Of a stretch of 64,000 bases of DNA, positions 26,879 through 37,468 are shown piece after piece. Below the pieces are notes generated by a model that was not told the origin of the DNA, made no database searches, and saw nothing but the letters and a program-made list of their open reading frames with translations. Source of the stretch: Acidobacteria bacterium Mor1. Lineage in GTDB: Bacteria; Acidobacteriota; Polarisedimenticolia; Polarisedimenticolales; Polarisedimenticolaceae. How positions within the stretch are numbered: the first letter of the stretch is position 1; each line of letters opens with the position of its first letter. The translations under genes and the position numbers were made by a program. The DNA lies in contig CP011806.1 in the NCBI GenBank assembly GCA_001664505.1, positions 3,189,350 through 3,253,349 of the forward strand. The letters run 5' to 3'.

Positions 26879-26952
26879 CCGGCACGGGTCACTAACCCGC
26901 ACCCACGGGGCCGCTCGACGCGCTATTCTTGCGGGTCGAGGTGACGGCCCTG

Positions 26953-27861
26953 ATGAGAAAGACGAACGAGATCCCGCCCGCGGCCGGCCGGCTGTTGCCG
27001 ATCCTCTGGATCGTGCTGCTTGCCTGTCTCGCATGTGGGTCGCCCCAGCAGGAATCCTCCGGCGATGCCTCGCAAGACGCCCCCCCCCGGCGCATCGTCT
27101 CGCTCACCCCTTCGATTACCGAGATCCTGTTCGCCCTCGGCCTCGGTGAGCGGATCGTCGGAGTGACCCAGTTCTGCGACTGGCCCGCGGAAGCCGCCGC
27201 CAAACCGCAGGTCGGCGGCTACTCCAACCCTTCGATCGAAAGCGTGCTGGCCCAACGCCCCGACCTGGTCCTGGTCAGCCCCAACACCGGCAACCGGGAA
27301 GCCGCTCTTGCCATCGAGCGAGCGGGGGTTCGCCTCGAAGTTATCGAGGGGGACAGCCTGGAAGAGACCTACCTGGCGGTTCGACAGGTCGCCGACGCCG
27401 CCGGGGTACCCGAGGAAGGCCAGCGCCTCGCCGCCGAGATCCGAGCACGGATCGATGAAGCGGGACGCCGGGTCGCCGGCCGCGAGCCGGTGCCCGCGCT
27501 GTTCTCGGTGCAGCTCGAGCCGATGATCGCGGCGGGCTCCGACACGTTGATCTCGGAGCTGCTCGAAGCCGCCGGCGGCCGCAACGTGGTTCAGGCCGAG
27601 GGCTACCCCCGGCTCGGGATCGAGACCGTGCTTCAGAGCGGCCCCGCGGTGGTGTTCCAGACCCGTATGGGCATGGAGGCCGAAGAAGAACGGGCGTTGA
27701 CCGATGCCTTCTGGCAACGCTGGCCGGCGCTGCCGGCGGTACGCGACGGCAGGGTCGCCCTGATCGATGCCTCGATCGCGACTCGACCGGGGCCGCGGAT
27801 CGCCGACGCCGTCGATGAGCTCGCCCGCCGGCTACACCCCGAGGCATTCGAAACCCCGTGA
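26953..27861 (+). CDS. btuF: Cobalamin ABC transporter substrate-binding lipoprotein, BtuF-like
   Basis: A 302-residue periplasmic binding protein. The signal peptide ends at a lipobox (Cys25 in VLLAC or Cys28 in CLAC), so it is probably a lipoprotein. The helical-backbone fold of the BtuF/FhuD class is indicated by RIVSLTPSITEILFALG, GVTQFCDWP, NPSIESVLAQRPDLVL and the C-terminal RPGPRIADAVDELA. The CDWP segment is frequent in cobalamin-binding members. I chose ATG 26953 (CGAGGTGA ten bases upstream) over a GTG at 26929. A siderophore or heme substrate is the alternative; the riboswitch-controlled BtuB nearby favours B12. Confidence 0.85.
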   Translation: MRKTNEIPPAAGRLLPILWIVLLACLACGSPQQESSGDASQDAPPRRIVSLTPSITEILFALGLGERIVGVTQFCDWPAEAAAKPQVGGYSNPSIESVLAQRPDLVLVSPNTGNREAALAIERAGVRLEVIEGDSLEETYLAVRQVADAAGVPEEGQRLAAEIRARIDEAGRRVAGREPVPALFSVQLEPMIAAGSDTLISELLEAAGGRNVVQAEGYPRLGIETVLQSGPAVVFQTRMGMEAEEERALTDAFWQRWPALPAVRDGRVALIDASIATRPGPRIADAVDELARRLHPEAFETP

Positions 27862-28871
27862 GGCCCAGGGCGCTCATGGCGCTGCCGTTGCTGCTGGCGC
27901 TGCTACCGATCTCCCTGTTGCTGGGTCTCGGCATCGGCACCAGCGGCGCGGGTTGGTCGGACTTACCCGGATTGTGGAACGACGACGCCGACCCGGTCGT
28001 GCGTCAGATCCTGATCGACGTGCGCCTGCCCCGGGTGTTGCTCGCCGCACTGGTCGGCGCCGCCCTCGCCGCCGCCGGCGTGGCCTACCAGGGCGTGTTG
28101 CGTAACCCGCTGGCCGACCCGTTCATCCTGGGTGTCTCCGGCGGCTCCGCACTCGGTGCCGTGCTGTTCGGCGCGGCGGCGGGCGCCACCTCCCTCGGCG
28201 TGCTCGGCCGGCCGGCAGCAGGATTCGGCGGCGCGCTGGTCACGCTCTTTCTACTGTTCCGGCTGGCCCGGCTCGGCGGCCGCACCGGGCCCACCACGTT
28301 GCTGCTGGTCGGTGTCGTACTCAACGCCATCGCTTCGGCATTGATCCTGTTCGTGATCACCGCCGGTGATCCGGCGCGCTTCCAGGGTGAGTTCTTCTAT
28401 CTGATCGGCCGCATCCCGCCGCAACCGCTCTCGACCCTGCTGGCCATCGCGATCTGGCTGGCCCTGGGCCTCGCGGTGCTGGCGACCCAGAGCCATCGAC
28501 TCAACCTGCTGGCTCTCGGTGAAGATGCCGCGGGACAGCTCGGCGTCGATCCCGAGCGTTCGATGTGGATCACGGTGCTCGCCGCGTCACTGGTTACCGC
28601 GGCGGCTGTAGCCTTCACCGGACTGGTCGGGTTCGTCGGCCTGATCGTGCCCCACATCGTGCGCACGCTGCTCGGGCCGGACCACCGCATTCTGTTGCCC
28701 TGCGCGACCCTCGCCGGCGCCTCCTTTCTCGTGTTGGCCGATTCGGCCGCGCGAGTCGTTGCCGCTCCGGTGGAAATTCCCGTCGGGGTACTGACGACCC
28801 TGATCGGCGGCCCCTTCTTCCTGGTGCTGTTCCTGCGTCACCTGCGAGAGGAGGGCGGCGCCGTGGGGTAG
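27858..28871 (+). CDS. btuC: Cobalamin ABC transporter permease, BtuC-like (FecCD family)
   Basis: A 337-residue permease with about ten membrane segments. Typical FecCD motifs are RLPRVLLAALVGAALAAAG near the N-terminus, NPLADPFILGVSGGSALGA, GFVGLIVPHIVRTLLGPDHR (the coupling helix region) and EIPVGVLTTLIGGPFFLVL at the end. The GTG start overlaps the btuF stop by four bases. The gene ends in a GTGGGGTAG context just before the ATPase coding sequence. Confidence 0.92.
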   Translation: MRPRALMALPLLLALLPISLLLGLGIGTSGAGWSDLPGLWNDDADPVVRQILIDVRLPRVLLAALVGAALAAAGVAYQGVLRNPLADPFILGVSGGSALGAVLFGAAAGATSLGVLGRPAAGFGGALVTLFLLFRLARLGGRTGPTTLLLVGVVLNAIASALILFVITAGDPARFQGEFFYLIGRIPPQPLSTLLAIAIWLALGLAVLATQSHRLNLLALGEDAAGQLGVDPERSMWITVLAASLVTAAAVAFTGLVGFVGLIVPHIVRTLLGPDHRILLPCATLAGASFLVLADSAARVVAAPVEIPVGVLTTLIGGPFFLVLFLRHLREEGGAVG

Positions 28872-28873
28872 CT

Positions 28874-29665
28874 CTGGAACTGCAGCAGGTCGACTTCGAC
28901 TACGGGCGCGGACCGCTGCTGCAGGATGTCACCTTCCGCATCGACGCCGGCGAGATGACCGGCCTGCTCGGCGCCAACGGTGCCGGCAAGACGACACTGG
29001 TGCGTCTGGCCTCCGGTCAACTCCAGTGCCGCCGGGGTACCGTGCGCCTCGACGGCGACGATGTATCCCGCCTGACGCCGCGGGACCGCGCCCGGCGCAT
29101 CGCCGTGGTGCCCCAGGAAACCCGGCTGACCTTCGGCTTCGATGTCGAACAGGTGGTCGCCATGGGACGCGCCCCTCACCAGGGACGCCTGGGGCTGGAA
29201 CGCCCCGAAGACCGCAGGGTCATCGAGGAGTCGATGGAGCTCACCGGCGTCGCCGATCTCCGGCGGCGTCCGTTCCAGCAGTTGTCGGGAGGAGAACGGC
29301 AACGTGTGGTGATCGCCCGGGCGTTGGCGCAACAGGCGTCGCTCCTGCTCCTCGACGAACCGACGGCCTTTCTCGATCTGCGGCACCGGGTCGAGACCTA
29401 TGAACTGTTGCGGCGGCTGCATCGTGACGACGGGCCGGCGATCCTGCTGGTGAGCCACGACCTGAACATGACCGCGCGCTACTGTTCCCGCTTGCTGCTC
29501 CTCGGCGAAGGCCGGCTTCTGGCCGACGGCGCTCCGGGCGAGGTGTTGAACCGGGAGCTGATCCGTCAGGCCTACGGCGTGGACAACCAGGTATTGCAGG
29601 ATCCGCTCTACGGTCATCCCTACGTCGTGCCTCTCGGCGGCGATGACCGGGAGCCCGCATCGTGA
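28874..29665 (+). CDS. btuD: Cobalamin ABC transporter ATP-binding protein, BtuD-like; no canonical start codon
   Basis: ABC ATPase of about 263 residues. Walker A is GANGAGKTT (33-41 from the CTG), the signature is LSGGERQRV, Walker B is LLLLDEPTAFLD and the H-loop is LLVSHDL. The family sequence begins at VALELQQVDFDYG, yet this frame has no ATG, GTG or TTG between an ATG far back in btuC (28565) and the conserved region. The coordinate given is CTG 28874. Alternatives are a -1 ribosomal shift on GGGG (28865-28868) that would fuse BtuC to BtuD, or a base error in the sequence. The 3' end overlaps roxA. Confidence 0.88.
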   Translation: MELQQVDFDYGRGPLLQDVTFRIDAGEMTGLLGANGAGKTTLVRLASGQLQCRRGTVRLDGDDVSRLTPRDRARRIAVVPQETRLTFGFDVEQVVAMGRAPHQGRLGLERPEDRRVIEESMELTGVADLRRRPFQQLSGGERQRVVIARALAQQASLLLLDEPTAFLDLRHRVETYELLRRLHRDDGPAILLVSHDLNMTARYCSRLLLLGEGRLLADGAPGEVLNRELIRQAYGVDNQVLQDPLYGHPYVVPLGGDDREPAS

Positions 29666-30855
29666 ACCGACCGAGCCCTTTCGGCGAAGTGTCCGTCGAC
29701 ACCTTCCTGAGCCGCTACTGGCAGCGCGAACCGCTGATGGTTCGCCGGGCGATCGAACCCGCGGACTACCCGGCGCCCGGCCGGGATCAACTGATCGCCG
29801 CCGCCGTCGACGGCGCACCGGCACGGTTGGTCGTGATACCGGGCCCCGAACAGGTCTGGTCGGTGCACCGCGAGCCCTTTCGGAGGGAGGACTTCGAACG
29901 GCTGCCCCGAGAGGGTTGGACGCTGTTGGTTCAGGAGAGCGACCGGCTGTTCGCCGGCTGCCGCCGGCTGCAAGAGCGTTTCCGCTTCATTCCCAACTGG
30001 CGGACCGACGACGTGATGACCAGCTACGCCGGCGACGGCGCCGGTGTCGGCCCACACGTCGATCGCTACGACGTGGTGCTCTATCAGGCCGCCGGCCGGC
30101 GGCGGTGGCGCATCGAATCGAAGCCGCGGAGGAATCCCGCACTGCGCAACGACACGGCGCTGCCGCTACTGGATCGTTTCGAACCGGACCGGGAGTGGAT
30201 CCTCGAGGCGGGCGATCTGCTCTATCTCCCGGCGGGGATTCCTCACGACGGCGTCGCGCTCGGCGAGTCGACCACCTGCTCCGTCGGCTTTCGCACGCCC
30301 GACCTGCGGGAGCTGGTCTCCGGCTTCGTCCGCGAACTTCCCCCGAGCGAGCTATCGCAGATCGCGCAGGCGGCGGAAGCCGAGCCCGGCACCCATGGAG
30401 TCATGGATCGCTCGCGGCCGGGCGAACTCTCCGACGCCGACCGTGCAGGTCTGCGAGCGACCATGCGACGGGTGTTCGCCGACGACGATCGTCTCGACCG
30501 TTGGATCGCCCGCTTCGTGACCCAACCCCGGCGCGGACTACGCGCTTCGGGACAACGGCCCCGCGACATCGACCATCTGCGCCGCCTGCTCGACCAGGGG
30601 CATGAGCTGCAGCGCAGCGCCACCGCCCACTTCAGCTGGTACGAGGACGGCGAGGGCAACACACAGTTGTTCGTCGGAGGGGAGCGCTATGAGCTGGGGC
30701 AGGCGGGCCGCGGAACCGCCGAATTGCTCTGCGGCGAGCAAGCGCTCGATCGAATCACCCTGGCCCCGCTGCTCTCCGATGCCCTCGGAGCCTTCGTGCT
30801 GCTGGATCTGATGGCCCGCGGCTATCTGCGGGCGGCAGCTCCGGCCGAAGGCTGA
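29662..30855 (+). CDS. roxA: Ribosomal oxygenase, RoxA/YcfD-like cupin (JmjC) protein
   Basis: Fe(II)/2-oxoglutarate-dependent oxygenase of 397 residues, related to E. coli YcfD, which hydroxylates an arginine of ribosomal protein uL16. The iron facial triad is visible: His132 and Asp134 in GPHVDRYDVVL and His195 in PAGIPHDGV. The surrounding GRRRWRIES and the C-terminal winged-helix-like region match the bacterial ROX group. GTG 29662 overlaps the btuD stop, so it is translated from the btu transcript. The 3' end overlaps the convergent exported protein gene by 34 bases. Function on the ribosome is inferred from family. Confidence 0.87.
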   Translation: MNRPSPFGEVSVDTFLSRYWQREPLMVRRAIEPADYPAPGRDQLIAAAVDGAPARLVVIPGPEQVWSVHREPFRREDFERLPREGWTLLVQESDRLFAGCRRLQERFRFIPNWRTDDVMTSYAGDGAGVGPHVDRYDVVLYQAAGRRRWRIESKPRRNPALRNDTALPLLDRFEPDREWILEAGDLLYLPAGIPHDGVALGESTTCSVGFRTPDLRELVSGFVRELPPSELSQIAQAAEAEPGTHGVMDRSRPGELSDADRAGLRATMRRVFADDDRLDRWIARFVTQPRRGLRASGQRPRDIDHLRRLLDQGHELQRSATAHFSWYEDGEGNTQLFVGGERYELGQAGRGTAELLCGEQALDRITLAPLLSDALGAFVLLDLMARGYLRAAAPAEG

Positions 30856-31388
30856 CCCGGCCGGCGAAGGGCCAGACCGAACTCCAGGACCAGTCTCTCG
30901 TCGTCGACCCGCACCTCCTGGACGAACAGCGAGACCTGGGTCTCCTCGCCGAGGGCCGGAAGCGACCCGCGTAGCGACCGGGGCAAGGCCACCACCGGCA
31001 TCCACGCCGCCACGTCGACGGCAGCGGGCAACCCGACGTCGGCCGAAGCCTGCTCGGCAACCAGCCGCACCGTTCCATCGAGACGATCGACCTGCGGGAC
31101 GTAGCGTGCCGCCAGGTTGCCGGACAGCGGCCCGGCGTGGAACGGCACGTCGACCTCGACGCCCCCTTCGGTGAAGCGCGGCGGGCGAGACCGCTCGAAG
31201 CGCAGCGGGATCGAACCGGCGCCGGGAAGCTCCACGGTGCGCGGCTGTGCCAGGGCGGCCTCGAACACCGCGTGAATCGCGCCGCGGTCCAACGAGAGCT
31301 CACCGGCACCGCCGGCGAGGCAGGGAACGATCGATGCCCACGCGAACACCGCGAGAGCGGCACACCATCGCAGCGATTGTCGACCCAT
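30822..31388 (-). CDS. Exported protein of unknown function
   Basis: A 188-residue protein I do not recognise. An N-terminal signal peptide (RRQS-like basic start, hydrophobic core, cleavage near CLAGGAG) directs it out of the cytoplasm. The rest alternates hydrophobic and polar residues as in an all-beta or lipid-binding-protein-like fold (e.g. GTVRLVAEQASADVGL). There are no Cys pairs or catalytic motifs. It begins nine bases after the lipoprotein gene and may be the last gene of the riboswitch-led transcript. Confidence 0.6.
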   Translation of the reverse strand: MGRQSLRWCAALAVFAWASIVPCLAGGAGELSLDRGAIHAVFEAALAQPRTVELPGAGSIPLRFERSRPPRFTEGGVEVDVPFHAGPLSGNLAARYVPQVDRLDGTVRLVAEQASADVGLPAAVDVAAWMPVVALPRSLRGSLPALGEETQVSLFVQEVRVDDERLVLEFGLALRRPGQPSAGAAARR

Positions 31389-31397
31389 CGGGAACTC

Positions 31398-32948
31398 CTA
31401 GTCGAGGGCTTCGATTGCGAACGGGGGCAATCCGAGGTTCACGCAGCCCAGCGCGGTCTCGGCATCCTGGGGATCGGCAGGTATCCGATAGAGGCAGACC
31501 TTCGGCTCGACGAAGGAACGCTCGGGCACCGCCAAGAGGCCGCTGCCGCCGAGCGCAATCTCGGGCAAGAAGTCGGGAGTGCTGCGCACCGTGCGCAAGG
31601 GCCTGGCGGCGACCGGATCGAAGGCCACCACCGAGCTACGGAACTGCTCGTCGACGACGATGGTGTAGCCGAGCCCCGGCGAGACCATCGCCAACCCACC
31701 GATGTTGCCGCCGGCGTCGTCGTCATCCAGGGCCCAGGACTCCACCGCCCAGTCCACCGGATCCACGACCACCACGCCGCCGGAGAGTTCCCGGGGCACG
31801 AGCCCGGGGAAGATGCCGGCCAACGCCACGTACAGCCGCTCCCCGTCGGGTGTCTCCACGACCTCGATCACCCCCGGGTTCTTGCCGCCGAGTGCCACCA
31901 CACCGGCCACGCTGTCCGTGTCGGGATCGATCACCGCCAGCTTTCCCTCGGCGTAGCGGGTGAAGGTGCGATCGATATCCTGCATGCCGGCGAAGACGTA
32001 GCCGCCGGCATAGGCCAGGCGATCGAGCCGTGGAGTGCCGTCCCGGTTCTCCGCCTCTTCCTCCAGCGGAATCGAGGCGCGGACAGTGCCCCCCTTGGGC
32101 GTGAACCGGGCCACGTCATCGAAGGGCGGCTCGTAACGGCTGACGAAGGCGCGCTCGTCGTCGAGCATCAGCACGTCATGGGGATTGGAGCCGGCCCCGG
32201 TCCCCGCTTGCCACGCCGTTCGGAACCCGTCGTCGGGATCGAGACGCTGCAGGTTGTCGAAGGTGAAGCGGTTGATCACGAACACCGCGCCGCCGGTGAC
32301 CCGCAACTCGGGATCGGAGCTGACCAGTTCCAAACCGTCGGTCAGGCGCAGCTCCCGTTGCTTGACCCAGGCGACCTCGGCGACCTGGCCGCTGGCGAAG
32401 AAGTCGGTGGTGGTCAGGAGAAAGCGCTGGCGGCGCCAGCCGGCGAACGTACCCGGCAGGCCGCTCTGGCTCTCCCATGATTCGCCGGCAACCGACCAGC
32501 CGCCGTCGATGCTGTCGCCACGCACCGTCAGTTCGAAAACCGTGTCGGCGACCCGCAGCGGCCCGATGCGGCCGGTGGTCCACGACGTAGGCGAGGCAAA
32601 CACCGTCGTACCGCCGTTGACCGAAAGATCCTCCACCGTGCCGCTGGCCTGGTCCCAGCGGGCGAGACCGGGCTCGACCTTCGCGAACCGTTCGCCGAAG
32701 CCACCGGCCTCGACGTGCAGCGTCAATTCGAGTTCGACGCCACGCTGCACCGCGCCCTGGATCAAGAGCTGAGGCAAGGTCACTTCCAGATCGATCACCT
32801 GCCCCAGCGCGGCGGCCGGTGCGCCGGTGGTCGGCAGGTCCGGCGGCGAGTAGTCACTGCCGCACCCGCAGACGGCGACGAGCGACAGCGACAGCGCCGC
32901 CGACAGGCCCAGGCCCTTGAAGCGCCGGAGCATCGCGGTCCCGATCAT
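31398..32948 (-). CDS. Surface-type lipoprotein, probable beta-propeller, next to BtuB
   Basis: A 516-residue lipoprotein. The signal peptide has RRFK, a hydrophobic core and a lipobox (Cys27 or Cys29 in VAVCGCGS). The C-terminal half has repeated blade-like stretches (GGYVFAGMQ, GKLAVIDPDTDSVAGVV, GERLYVALAG, GGVVVVDPVDWAVESW, VVAFDPVAARPLRTV), as in YncE-type propellers. The N-terminal 200 residues are a separate beta-rich part. In Bacteroidetes a propeller lipoprotein, BtuG, caps BtuB and binds B12; this gene is coupled to btuB by an ATGA overlap and could have the same job, but homology to BtuG cannot be shown here. Confidence 0.72.
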   Translation of the reverse strand: MIGTAMLRRFKGLGLSAALSLSLVAVCGCGSDYSPPDLPTTGAPAAALGQVIDLEVTLPQLLIQGAVQRGVELELTLHVEAGGFGERFAKVEPGLARWDQASGTVEDLSVNGGTTVFASPTSWTTGRIGPLRVADTVFELTVRGDSIDGGWSVAGESWESQSGLPGTFAGWRRQRFLLTTTDFFASGQVAEVAWVKQRELRLTDGLELVSSDPELRVTGGAVFVINRFTFDNLQRLDPDDGFRTAWQAGTGAGSNPHDVLMLDDERAFVSRYEPPFDDVARFTPKGGTVRASIPLEEEAENRDGTPRLDRLAYAGGYVFAGMQDIDRTFTRYAEGKLAVIDPDTDSVAGVVALGGKNPGVIEVVETPDGERLYVALAGIFPGLVPRELSGGVVVVDPVDWAVESWALDDDDAGGNIGGLAMVSPGLGYTIVVDEQFRSSVVAFDPVAARPLRTVRSTPDFLPEIALGGSGLLAVPERSFVEPKVCLYRIPADPQDAETALGCVNLGLPPFAIEALD

Positions 32949-34975
32949 CGCGCGGCCCTCTGCCAACCGACGTGCAGCAACACGACCCGGGAGGGCAACG
33001 GGTAGCGGGCAACGTCGCGGACCTGCCGGTCGAACAGGTTGCGGATATCGAGACCGAGTCGTGCGCCGCCGCGCAGGCGCACCCCGAAGCGCACGTCGTG
33101 GAGCAACCGGGAACTCATGCGCAGCTCCGGCGTATCCGCCCGGTCGGTGCTGTTGGCGCCGACGTAGGTCGCATCCCAGCGGCCGTCGACCCGGCCCTGG
33201 GTCCAGCTCAGCCCCAGATAACCGAGGCGCTCGGGCTCGTAGACCAACGGCTTGCCGTCGAACACGATCGCCGAGCTCTCCTCGGGACGCTGCAACGTGC
33301 CGCCGGCGCTCAGCGCGATCCCTCCCTCGAACCTGAGATCGACCGAGGCCTCCAGCCCGGACACCCGGGCGCCACCGAGGTTCTGAAAGCGGGCGATTCC
33401 CTGGGCGTTGTTCAACAGCCAGATCAGGTCGTCCACATCCCGGTGGAAGCCGAGCAGCTCGACGCTCAGTCGATGTCCCTCGCCGTCGAAGCGGCGCTGC
33501 ACGCCGAACTCACCGCTCCACCCGCTCTCCGAGCGCAGCTCCGGGTTGCCGACGATGGCGCCGCGGTTGCCGAACAGCTCGGTCAGGTTCGGCGCGCGGA
33601 AGAAACGGCCGACGGAACCTCGAAGCTGGGTGCGGGGTCCCAGGGTCCAGGCCAGCCCGAACTTGCCCGAGACTCCGGTCTCTCCCACATCCCCCGACGG
33701 CGGCGGCAGCGTGCCCTGCCCTCCGGCGAGAAAACGATCTTCACGGCGCTCGACCCGCAACGCCGGCGCCAGGGTCAGGCGTCCACGGGTCACGACGTCT
33801 TCGACGGTCCAGGCCCAGGAGACACGTTCGGCGCCACCCCGGTCGACGATGTCGAGGGCCTGGTCATCGACCTCCGCACGCTCGAAGCGCCCGTCGAAGC
33901 GCAATCGCACACTGTGGGAGCCCCGCCGCAGCGCTCCCTGGGCCGCGAAACCACCGCCGCGAATCTGCGTGGTTTGATCGATGAGGAACACCGGTCCCTC
34001 GAGATCCCGGAATCCCCCGCGCTGATCGACCAGATCGATCTGAGTCTCGACGGCGTCGAAGACGCCGAAGTCCTCCCTGCGATGGGACAGCACCAGGTTG
34101 ACGTTGCGATCGGTGGCGGTGGCACTGGGGGAGGGCGTGAAATTTTCGATGCCGGGCACGCCCTGCTCGCGATCCTGTCCACGCAGCGACAGCCGGTAGC
34201 TGCCCCGCCCCGGCGGCGCCCAGACCCCGGACACCGAGACCGAGCGATGTTCGAGGCCATTGTTCTCCCGGCGCCGCACCACGTCGTCGCCGGAGTTGAA
34301 CGGGGTCGCTCCGGTATCGAGGTAGCGATAGTCCCCTTCGCTCTCCAACGACTCGACGCCGAAACGGAGGTGACCGTGCTCCCCGGCGGGCACCACGGCA
34401 CCGCCGGAAACCCGGGTGGTACCCAGCTCGCCGGCGAGCAGGTCGAAGCGGCCTTCCGCCGCTTCCGGTTCGCGGGTGCGAATGTCGATCAGGCCACCGA
34501 GCCCGCCGAGGCCGAGATGCGCCGGACCGAAGCCGCGGAAGACGGTGACCTCGGCGATGTCCGACGCGGGGATGGCAGCCAGGTTGACCGGGCCACCCAG
34601 AGCGCGGTTCTGGGGCACGCCGTCCACCAGCACCGTGACCTGTTCGGCGGTCGAGCCGCGCAGGGAAACCGTCGCGTACTGGCCGAGCCCGCCGTAGTCC
34701 CGTACCCGGGCACCGGGCACCTGACGCAACAGGTCGGAAAGGTCTGCGCCCTGGGCCGCCAGATCCCGGGCATCGAGGGTCGTGACGAAGGCCGCCACGT
34801 CCTCGGTCTCGGGAGTTTCTCCCTCGACCCGCACCGATTCACGCACGCCCGACGGCCGCGCCGTTTCGGCAGCGGCTTCGTCGCTGCTCTCGCCGGAGGC
34901 CCAGAGCGGGAGCCCGGCGAGCAGCGTCAGGGACAGTCCGAGGACGTGTCCCGCGGCTCGAGGTCCGAAGACCAT
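32945..34975 (-). CDS. btuB: TonB-dependent outer-membrane cobalamin receptor, BtuB-like
   Basis: A 676-residue outer-membrane beta-barrel. After a signal peptide (about 1-30) comes a region with VTTLDARDLAAQG, resembling a TonB box/secretin-like start, then a plug domain (LSDLLRQVPGARVRDYGG, VLVDGVPQNRALGG, DIAEVTVFRGFGPAHLG). The barrel has family segments such as FFRAPNLTELFGNRGAIVGNPEL and ends in RVVLLHVGWQRAAR with few aromatic residues. Substrate assignment to cobalamin rests on the upstream riboswitch. The start at 34975 overlaps the upstream gene by 49 bases; a longer frame is rejected because it hides the signal peptide. Confidence 0.9.
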   Translation of the reverse strand: MVFGPRAAGHVLGLSLTLLAGLPLWASGESSDEAAAETARPSGVRESVRVEGETPETEDVAAFVTTLDARDLAAQGADLSDLLRQVPGARVRDYGGLGQYATVSLRGSTAEQVTVLVDGVPQNRALGGPVNLAAIPASDIAEVTVFRGFGPAHLGLGGLGGLIDIRTREPEAAEGRFDLLAGELGTTRVSGGAVVPAGEHGHLRFGVESLESEGDYRYLDTGATPFNSGDDVVRRRENNGLEHRSVSVSGVWAPPGRGSYRLSLRGQDREQGVPGIENFTPSPSATATDRNVNLVLSHRREDFGVFDAVETQIDLVDQRGGFRDLEGPVFLIDQTTQIRGGGFAAQGALRRGSHSVRLRFDGRFERAEVDDQALDIVDRGGAERVSWAWTVEDVVTRGRLTLAPALRVERREDRFLAGGQGTLPPPSGDVGETGVSGKFGLAWTLGPRTQLRGSVGRFFRAPNLTELFGNRGAIVGNPELRSESGWSGEFGVQRRFDGEGHRLSVELLGFHRDVDDLIWLLNNAQGIARFQNLGGARVSGLEASVDLRFEGGIALSAGGTLQRPEESSAIVFDGKPLVYEPERLGYLGLSWTQGRVDGRWDATYVGANSTDRADTPELRMSSRLLHDVRFGVRLRGGARLGLDIRNLFDRQVRDVARYPLPSRVVLLHVGWQRAAR

Positions 34976-36144
34976 CCGTACTGCTCCCGGTTCGCCGTGC
35001 GAACCACGTAGAAGAAACCCTCGCCGGCCGCGGGCTGATCCGCGTCGCAGCTGTAGCGCACCGCGGCCGGCCCCTGGTACAGGCAGGTCGTATTGCCGAG
35101 GTCGACCCCGCCGGCGTCGGCGAAGAGCATCGACAGGTCTCCACGCAGAAGCGCGTAGGACTCGGTGCTCCCCAGGAAGGTCCAGCGGGCCTCGGTGCAC
35201 GCCGCGCCGCTCAGCCACAAGCGCGGCTCCGCGAGATGCGCGGGACCGGCCAGGGCGGAGTTGGCATCGCGACAGGCCGCCACCTCGCGGCCGTCGTCGA
35301 CGCCGTCGAGGTCGCTGTCGCTCAACGCCGGGTCGGTGCCGTAGAGCTCGACCTCGGCGGCATCGCTCAGGCCGTCTCCGTCGCTATCGGATGCAGCCGG
35401 CTGGGTCGGCCGTCCGTTGAGCACCACGACGGCGTCGAGATCGAAACCGTCGCCGGCGCCGGGGAAGCCGTTCCTGCTGTCGGCATCGATGATGCGGACG
35501 TAGCGCGCCTCGCTCAATCCCACCGTCGCCAGATCGAACGCGTCACCGCCGGCGCCGGATATGCCGTTGGTTCCGGCGGGATCCCAGACGTCAGGATCGT
35601 CGGGCACCGTCCAGTCGCCGGTGAGCGTCGGCGTCAGCCCGGCCAGCCCTCGCAGATCGAGATACAGCGCCCGGTCGACTCCGCTGACGCCGCTGGCCGC
35701 GGCCAGGGCGCCGGCATCGTAGGGGAAAGCGACCCACTGAACGCCGTCGGCGGAGACCTCGACGATCCCCGGCTCGACGAAAACGACGAAGTCGTCGGCG
35801 GGATCCGTCGGACCGGCGCCGGAAAAGAACGCGTTCTCGAACACGATGAAATCGGGACCGGGACCGTCCTCCAGGATCACGTCCGCCCAGCTGAAGACTG
35901 CGCTGCCGCCATGACCCAACGATGCCACGCTGGTCGAACCGATCACCGGCGCCGAATCACCGGGAGGGCCGAGCACGATGCCCGGAAGGTTCGCCGCGCC
36001 GAAGCGCACCGATGGATCCGGTCCGGCCGCGGACCACTCGAGGCGGTCGGGAAGGCAGTCCACCGGCTGCGACCGCTCACCGGCGAACGGCGTGGCCGCG
36101 ATGAGCCACGCCGCCGCCAGCATCACGAGGACGCGACGATTCAT
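34927..36144 (-). CDS. Exported protein with calcium-type thrombospondin-3 repeats, riboswitch operon
   Basis: A 405-residue protein with a signal peptide ending near ATPFAGE. Residues 30-245 form a beta-rich domain with FIVFENAFF, VEVSADGVQWVAFPYD and ARYVRIIDADSRNGFPGAGDGFDLDAVVV, a pattern reminiscent of carbohydrate-binding or discoidin-like folds. Residues 253-287 carry two Asp-rich thrombospondin type 3-like repeats (DSDGDGLSDAAE, DSDLDGVDDGRE) expected to bind calcium. Four Cys lie in the C-terminal part. It is coupled by ATGA to the gene before it and overlaps btuB, so a role in surface capture of cobalamin is likely but unproven. Confidence 0.7.
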   Translation of the reverse strand: MNRRVLVMLAAAWLIAATPFAGERSQPVDCLPDRLEWSAAGPDPSVRFGAANLPGIVLGPPGDSAPVIGSTSVASLGHGGSAVFSWADVILEDGPGPDFIVFENAFFSGAGPTDPADDFVVFVEPGIVEVSADGVQWVAFPYDAGALAAASGVSGVDRALYLDLRGLAGLTPTLTGDWTVPDDPDVWDPAGTNGISGAGGDAFDLATVGLSEARYVRIIDADSRNGFPGAGDGFDLDAVVVLNGRPTQPAASDSDGDGLSDAAEVELYGTDPALSDSDLDGVDDGREVAACRDANSALAGPAHLAEPRLWLSGAACTEARWTFLGSTESYALLRGDLSMLFADAGGVDLGNTTCLYQGPAAVRYSCDADQPAAGEGFFYVVRTANREQYGWSSDLEPRDTSSDCP

Positions 36145-37031
36145 TCGCCCGCCTGGGGAATCGCCACGCCGGGGCGGACTTCCAACCGGTGGTAGTGAAC
36201 CCGGGCGAAGACCGTCGGCGTCTCGCCGCTGAAGCCGTCGCGCCACAGGGTCAAGCCGACGGTGTCCAGTTCGTATCGGCGCAGCCCCATGCCATCCAGC
36301 GGGGCGGCGCTGACCGAACCCGGAATCAGAACCGGCACTCCGCTCTCGTCGAAACGGTAGACGCTGGAGGTCACGCGATCGGCCGCCGGGTCGTGCTCCA
36401 GCACAGCGATCAGCGGTTCATCCAGGGGAAGCTCCAGTTCGACGCTGGCGAAGCCGGCGTTGATGAACGAGCCGAGAAAGTCGAACAGCGGGTTGTCCGG
36501 ATCGGCCACCCCGAACGCCGAGGGTCCGACGAAGGGGCCCCCGAAGAACGGCGACACGTTGGGAAAGTAGTCGAACTCGACCAGTTCGAAGGTGTCGCCG
36601 GCGAAGTTCTCGAGGGTGCCGGTGCGCTCGAGACCGGTGGTCTCGGAGTTCCACAGCCCCCAGGAGATCTGGAAAAAGCCGAAGGGGTCGGCCTGGAACT
36701 CGTCGGAGTCGATGACGAAGACCGAGGTCGCCGTGAACGGCTGGGTCTCGTCGAAATACCGCGGCAGGGTCCAGCCGGCGAGGCCGCTCGGCATCCGCGC
36801 GTCGTAGACGGCGGTCCAGGAACCGGCGCTGTCGCCGGGGAAGGCGGGCGCGTCGTCGTTCCAGCTCAGGCGATCGAGGGCGGCGCCGCGTAAAACCAGC
36901 GCGGCGTCCTCCACCGGGTTGTTGTCGAAGGTCTCGACGAAGACCGGAAGTTGCCGTGCCTCTTGCTGGGCCACAGCCGAACCGGAGAGAAGGACAAGGG
37001 TGAGCAGCGAGACGAAAACAAACAAACGCAT
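36141..37031 (-). CDS. Exported protein, first gene of the riboswitch-led operon
   Basis: A 296-residue protein I do not recognise. The signal peptide is clear (MRLFVFVSLLTLVLL, cleavage after AVA before QQEAR). The mature part is rich in Phe, Asp and Gly with beta-strand patterns (FELVEFDYFPNVSPFFGG, GFASVELELPLDEPLIAVL) and has no Cys. ATG 37031 has GGAGA seven bases upstream; a longer frame running into the leader RNA is rejected. It lies 115 bases after the riboswitch terminator and is coupled to the thrombospondin-repeat protein. DUF4465-type proteins in Bacteroidetes B12 loci are a family to compare. Confidence 0.7.
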   Translation of the reverse strand: MRLFVFVSLLTLVLLSGSAVAQQEARQLPVFVETFDNNPVEDAALVLRGAALDRLSWNDDAPAFPGDSAGSWTAVYDARMPSGLAGWTLPRYFDETQPFTATSVFVIDSDEFQADPFGFFQISWGLWNSETTGLERTGTLENFAGDTFELVEFDYFPNVSPFFGGPFVGPSAFGVADPDNPLFDFLGSFINAGFASVELELPLDEPLIAVLEHDPAADRVTSSVYRFDESGVPVLIPGSVSAAPLDGMGLRRYELDTVGLTLWRDGFSGETPTVFARVHYHRLEVRPGVAIPQAGE

Positions 37032-37181: not shown

Positions 37182-37261
37182 CATTTCCTCCGATAGACCG
37201 GTCAAGCCGGCAATCGGCGGCGCTCGGCGGTCGAACCTGCCCCTGGTCGGTTCAACACCAT

Positions 37262-37432
37262 CGGCATGCGTCGGTCTCCTGGCTTGCGGGTCAACCGGCT
37301 AGCCGCGCCTTCCCAGGGTTTCCCCCAGTGGCAGGTCCTGAAGCAGGACCCCGCGGTTGCCGTCGCCGCTCACAGTCGCCGGGCGGCATGGGATTCACAC
37401 CCAATTTCCCGTTACGCCTGCCGTGCTCTGAC
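37262..37432 (-). ncRNA. Cobalamin (B12) riboswitch
   Basis: On the minus strand the conserved blocks appear in order: GGGTGTGAATCCCATGCCG, then GCCCGGCGACTGT, then the B12 box GCCACTGGGGG with AAACCCTGGGAAGG, and finally AAGCCAGGAGACCGAC. These are the core elements of the AdoCbl-class riboswitch. A terminator follows 80 bases downstream, so control is by transcription attenuation: cobalamin should switch the btuB operon off. The outer boundaries are approximate. Confidence 0.96.
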
Positions 37433-37438
37433 CGACGG

Positions 37439-37468
37439 AGAGTACCAGAGGCCACCGCGGCCGGGCAA
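37439..37468 (-). promoter_or_regulatory. Probable sigma-70-type promoter of the riboswitch operon
   Basis: On the minus strand TTGCCC (37468-37463) and TACTCT (37444-37439) are separated by 18 bases. Initiation would fall near 37432, at the 5' edge of the riboswitch. The match is moderate. Confidence 0.45.

Follow-up and report, generated by a model that had tools for sequence, protein, structure and literature searches.

What do the exported proteins encoded around a BtuB-type transporter behind a cobalamin riboswitch do in an acidobacterium? We addressed this question in the window, a stretch of 64,000 nucleotides of contig CP011806.1 of Acidobacteria bacterium Mor1 (class Polarisedimenticolia), in which a minus-strand unit spanning 37445-30822 comprises a riboswitch, a terminator, and the genes of proteins A, B, BtuB, D, and E, in this order (Table 1). 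We propose, with a probability of roughly 0.8, that this operon serves outer-membrane cobamide (B12) scavenging through BtuB/BtuG/BtuH-like capture, together with a new partner, protein A, of predicted lectin fold.

Table 1. Features of the locus, with positions counted from the first nucleotide of the window
Feature	Positions	Strand	Basis or remark
btuF-like gene, periplasmic binding lipoprotein	26929..27861	+	Open reading frame; homologues beside B, BtuB, and D in relatives
btuC-like gene, permease	27858..28871	+	FecCD, E = 2e-84; PRK09535 (BtuC)
btuD-like gene, ATPase	28868..29665	+	Best NCBIfam family, corrinoid ABC transporter ATPase
ROXA-like JmjC oxygenase gene	29662..30855	+	
Protein E gene	30822..31388	-	Open frame, 188 aa; small exported protein
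Protein D gene	31398..32948	-	Open frame, 516 aa; lipoprotein
BtuB gene	32945..34975	-	Open frame, 676 aa; TonB barrel and plug (Pfam)
Protein B gene	34927..36144	-	Open frame, 405 aa; signal peptide
C-terminal module of B, residues 305-405	34930..35232	-	Class-specific; common to many large exported proteins
TSP3 calcium-binding repeats of B, residues 250-290	35275..35397	-	Linker; PF18884, E = 1.7e-7
BtuH-like domain of B, residues 26-244	35413..36069	-	Predicted homologue of 7biz 315-593 (BtuH2) and 8blw_B 388-660 (BtuG1 H-domain)
Protein A gene	36141..37031	-	Open frame, 296 aa; exported
Intrinsic terminator downstream of riboswitch, ahead of protein A gene	about 37182-37146	-	Strong hairpin and T-run
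Cobalamin riboswitch (RF00174)	37252..37445	-	E = 1.2e-18; complete, full model

The covariance-model score of the leader riboswitch was above the gathering score of RF00174 (81.9 versus 31.5 bits), and this is the sole cobalamin riboswitch in the 5.985-Mb genome. The terminator hairpin downstream of it has a predicted energy of -23 kcal/mol (z = -3.8 for the stretch), and most relatives likewise have terminator-like hairpins in this interval; the arrangement is one of transcription attenuation. The preliminary description had placed a riboswitch and a terminator at the head of the operon and had reported overlaps of ATGA or longer among the first four genes, and both statements were confirmed: A/B and BtuB/D overlap by ATGA (4 nt each) and B/BtuB by 49 nt, and the gap between D and E is 9 nt. 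Pfam gave no match for A, D, or E. This arrangement is not due to chance, since the set of riboswitch, BtuB, and D, accompanied by A and/or B, is found again in different families of the class.

The identity of the transporter was assigned from its riboswitch context and its best equivalog match, which is TIGR01779 (TonB-B12; E = 5e-39), yet the score of 134 bits did not reach the equivalog cut-off of 599.7 (about 600) bits. Judged by sequence, it is a putative, divergent BtuB-type TonB-dependent outer-membrane transporter. The btuF-, btuC-, and btuD-like genes and the ROXA-like oxygenase gene form an operon convergent to A-B-BtuB-D. The oxygenase gene overlaps the btuD-like gene by 4 nt and meets E tail-to-tail, with a 34-nt overlap with the end of E. 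BtuB also scores against heme receptor families, and the btuD-like ATPase resembles heme ABC ATPases too, which, with the divergence of BtuB, would fit a system for a nutrient other than complete cobamides, be it another corrinoid-like compound or a metal tetrapyrrole (e.g., heme or precursor corrinoids). We regard this as highly improbable, because a cobalamin riboswitch lies in front, the best equivalog of the receptor is TonB-B12, the best family of the ATPase is one of corrinoid transport, and B has BtuH-domain homology. Cobamide scavenging also accords with the gene content of the host: CbiC, the sole marker of corrin-ring synthesis that we examined, is absent from the genome, and four proteins with B12-binding domains are present, so that uptake matters. 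This is consistent with dependence of the host on B12 uptake, as far as biosynthesis is represented by CbiC.

In protein B, Pfam recognized only the TSP3 repeat, and the NCBIfam model LIC_13355 gave a sub-threshold match. Structural comparison placed its N-terminal domain with the B12-binding domains of Bacteroides: in VIA-align, the predicted model of B matched 7biz_B and 8blw_B at Z = 11.8 each (165-173 residues, 20% identity), and in Foldseek, 8blw_B was ranked second. The model is of moderate confidence, with a pLDDT of 68 overall and of under 50 at residues 42-73 and 174-179. Besides, a B-family profile built from 26 B-domains of many phyla was compared with the whole PDB and found 8blw_B (E = 0.0036) and 7biz_A (E = 0.29), with no entries beyond 8blw and 7biz up to E = 10. 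The FENAF motif of B aligns to GNAF of 7biz, and N104 and F106 correspond to Asn399 and Phe401 of BtuH2, in a numbering of 7biz that is offset by +100, as inferred from the construct. In BtuH2, Asn399 contacts the phosphate and Phe401 the base of B12 (PMC8941943). Both residues of B are invariant in the class alignment; across phyla, the Asn of the B-domain never varies and the Phe hardly does. The profile alignment to 7biz covers this motif and leaves out the B12-contact regions of BtuH2 at Gln333, His476, Tyr510, Trp511, and Trp577. Profile and model identify the N-terminal domain of B as a distant homologue of the B12-binding domains of BtuH and BtuG1-H, and we infer that B binds cobamides.

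The remainder of B differs from BtuH. No lipobox Cys was found in its signal sequence, and the features of full-length BtuH, N-terminal PKD/Ig-like domains and a lipoprotein signal, were not found in it. Since these domains and the lipobox are lacking, we do not file the whole protein as BtuH and call only its domain BtuH-like. Of the three parts of B, the N-terminal domain is the conserved one. The TSP3 segment matches the corresponding segment of the Bap B domain 7c7r. The preliminary description had regarded B as a calcium-repeat protein without an obvious counterpart, a view that the BtuH-type domain overturns. We considered the calcium repeats as the active part of B and rejected this, because homologues in other phyla often have nothing beyond the BtuH-like domain (about 240-300 aa). 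The C-terminal module, of about 100 aa, recurs in many large exported proteins of the class (also in loci L077-L090), where it occupies the very C-terminus, 0-6 residues before the stop, and it has the look of a domain for surface anchoring or sorting. It usually terminates with a Cys only a few residues before the stop, is present in at least 6 proteins of this genome, and is absent from Pfam.

How far the B family extends was assessed by scanning 84,980 species genomes. The best 80 of the 221 relatives were kept, and these are from Acidobacteriota, Myxococcota and other former Deltaproteobacteria, Binatota, Planctomycetota, KSB1, Ignavibacteria, Bacteroidota, and further groups; a search for B on plasmids gave no match. 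By a direct Rfam scan, a cobalamin-type riboswitch was located upstream on the same strand in 20 of 24 B loci so examined outside the class. An earlier matching of riboswitches to B by coordinates only (37/44) was dropped, at least two of its matches (L133 and L167) being spurious. Sequence searches with class-trained profiles covered 65 distant B loci, many of them incomplete; of these, 25 carry a BtuB-like gene at a distance of up to 4 kb on the same strand, 17 carry a D-like propeller, and 14 carry both. All 26 B-domains also match NF033170 (LIC_13355), with a best E of 5e-20; B of the window (35395-36075) scores 52 bits against a curated cut-off of 120. The Leptospira protein LIC_13355 was assayed as a putative host-binding lipoprotein, with no mention of B12.

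Several of the distant loci had features of their own. A full-length acidobacterial-type B gene (L099, 1712-2959) comes from a contig that bears the label Candidatus Rokuibacteriota, which may reflect a binning error or a transfer. In Corallococcus interemptor, one locus (L110, 9593-14541) contains two B-domain genes, and three hits of cobalamin riboswitches, all on a single contig of this genome, have coordinates that fit this locus, which suggests several B12 capture units side by side. A Bacteroidota locus (L176, 14313-17103) has a DUF4465 (BtuJ-type) gene directly 3' of a TonB receptor gene. Long proteins with a C-terminal BtuH-like domain are encoded in L147 (4151-6082), L151 (7010-8917), and L137 (7298-9427); the N-terminal part of the last is propeller-like in appearance, and in the other two an apparent C-terminal sorting-type tail follows the domain.

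The fold and the distribution of B bear on a different reading, in which B (and A) would be carbohydrate-binding proteins that tether the cell or its B12 machinery to glycans, cobamide being handled by D and BtuB alone. The next fold after the BtuH domains in the VIA-align comparison of B is CBM32/discoidin-like (Z = 7.9), and A matches legume lectins. However, the BtuH domains outscore all CBM32 folds by about 4 Z units, the B-family profile matches only BtuH domains in the PDB, and the family is located behind cobalamin riboswitches across phyla. We thus consider such a tether improbable and retain cobamide capture as the likely function of B; for A, glycan binding is a possible function.

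Protein D, which the preliminary description had called a probable propeller lipoprotein, was corroborated as such: its lipobox Cys is invariant, and profiles of its conserved part match β-propeller structures, BtuG entries included. Which propeller comes first depends on the sequences in the profile. With YncE-like fusion sequences, BtuG structures were matched at E = 1e-8 to 1e-10; without them, the generic propeller 1l0q came first (E = 1e-10), and BtuG entries were at about 1e-3. D adjoins BtuB both in the class and in distant phyla. We regard D as a predicted β-propeller lipoprotein and as probably the counterpart of BtuG. Furthermore, in L147 and L151 a YncE-like propeller precedes and is fused to the B domain, as in BtuG1, and these fusions link B and D functionally, here outside gut Bacteroidetes. 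The BtuG1 of Bacteroides has two B12 sites (PMC10404256).

Protein A was modeled with high confidence (pLDDT 88, pTM 0.85) as a concanavalin/legume-lectin-like β-sandwich, with a structural match at Z = 15.4 (3.2 Å, 203 residues, about 10% identity). Profile searches of Pfam, NCBIfam, and the PDB found no sequence relatives of A, and no legume-lectin match was obtained by sequence. Two exported proteins of unfamiliar family had been reported in the preliminary description; this still applies to A, for which no family was found, and no longer to B with its BtuH-like domain. DUF4465 (BtuJ), which had been suggested for comparison, is not involved: PF14717 is absent genome-wide and from 20 A members, hhalign of A with two DUF4465 sequences gave a probability of 0.2, and no DUF4465 entry is among the structural matches listed for A. 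We thus rejected the assignment of A to DUF4465/BtuJ at the sequence level.

Homologues of A occur in 20 of the 41 genomes of the class, one in each, and all 20 copies are in the B12 locus. No homologue was found in 39 sampled genomes of other classes of the phylum, nor in the other phyla sampled. Being exclusive to the riboswitch operon, A may well have a role in cobamide acquisition; it is the true unexplained partner, with no link to any cobamide binder known so far. Its strict linkage to the locus would also suit a role of A in scaffolding or assembly of BtuB/D, or as a permanent lid partner, as would the position of the gene, which moves between first place and the place directly after D, and the lack of sequence similarity to ligand-binding families. 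We find a nonbinding A of this kind rather unlikely, given that concanavalin-like sandwiches usually bind ligands. The widest reading is a tentative proposal, possible rather than probable: that A founds a new extracellular cobamide-binding or -transfer family on a lectin-like fold and that BtuB-BtuH-propeller capture is general in many phyla beyond Bacteroidota.

The layouts in the class place these proteins in rank. The order is either riboswitch-A-B-BtuB-D(-E) or riboswitch-B-BtuB-D-A, and in some loci of the latter type BtuF adjoins A. In one genome the order is riboswitch-B-BtuB-D, next to btuFDC and lacking A. From these layouts, B-BtuB-D is the stable core, to which A is often and E rarely added. 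Homologues of E occur in 21 of 41 class genomes, mostly away from the B12 locus, and searches of Pfam, NCBIfam, and PDB profiles gave nothing useful. E belongs to a class-wide family, probably without specificity for B12, and it was rejected as a core component, as most of its homologues are outside the B12 locus.

A scheme of hand-over can be drawn by analogy with Bacteroides thetaiotaomicron (PMC8941943, PMC10404256, PMC12751083). When B12 is scarce, the riboswitch would let transcription read past the terminator. Secreted B, held at or near the surface via its calcium-stiffened repeats and C-terminal module, would bind cobamide with its N-terminal domain; D would take the cobamide and, like BtuG, pass it to BtuB as a lid. 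BtuB would import it with TonB energy, and BtuF/BtuCD of the convergent operon would move it over the inner membrane. A might be a lectin-fold accessory dedicated to the pathway, which binds cobamide itself or helps to load or anchor the complex. Here we infer the surface location, the cobamide binding by A, B, and D, the order of hand-over, and the lid role of D.

Among known systems, B is closest to BtuH (BT_1956/BT_1488) and the H-domain of BtuG1 (BT_1490) of B. thetaiotaomicron. It resembles them in the fold of its B12-binding-type domain (Z = 11.8), in keeping the B12-contacting Asn and Phe, in a weak but specific sequence match, and in being encoded with btuB behind a cobalamin riboswitch. 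It differs in its low identity (about 20%), in the N-terminal position of the domain, which is followed by TSP3 repeats and a class-specific C-terminal module, and, from BtuH, in the lack of PKD/Ig domains and lipobox and in its acidobacterial host. An analogous but sequence-divergent capture system had been proposed for this lineage; a riboswitch-led uptake operon comparable to BtuG/BtuH is indeed present, whereas for B the relation is one of predicted homology and not of analogy. The original description of BtuH reported that its domain was without known structural homologues, and the survey of the domain covered gut Bacteroidetes and, as exceptions, three Firmicutes (PMC8941943); these three are the only BtuH proteins outside Bacteroidetes that we found in the open-access literature. 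Our finding of a BtuH-like domain downstream of such riboswitches in groups that include Acidobacteriota, Myxococcota, Binatota, and KSB1 would make capture of B12 at the surface a widespread strategy of soils and sediments, not a speciality of the gut.

The other comparisons are less close. D shares with the BtuG proteins (YncE/DUF5074 propeller lipoproteins of BtuBG complexes) its propeller, its lipoprotein nature, and the location of its gene immediately downstream of btuB; unlike them, it carries an additional N-terminal domain (roughly 150 aa), and its own profile does not distinguish BtuG from other propellers. The Leptospira LIC_13355 lipoproteins (NF033170) share a model that all 26 B-domains match, although B of the window falls short of its cut-off (52 versus 120 bits); a testable function is thereby offered for proteins named 'LIC_13355 family lipoprotein', including the Leptospira protein studied as a host-binding factor. 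Lastly, our analysis isolates A as the one unexplained partner: it is a small exported β-sandwich encoded with btuB, as are the cobamide-binding jelly rolls of BtuJ/DUF4465, but it models as a concanavalin-like sandwich and has no profile similarity to them.
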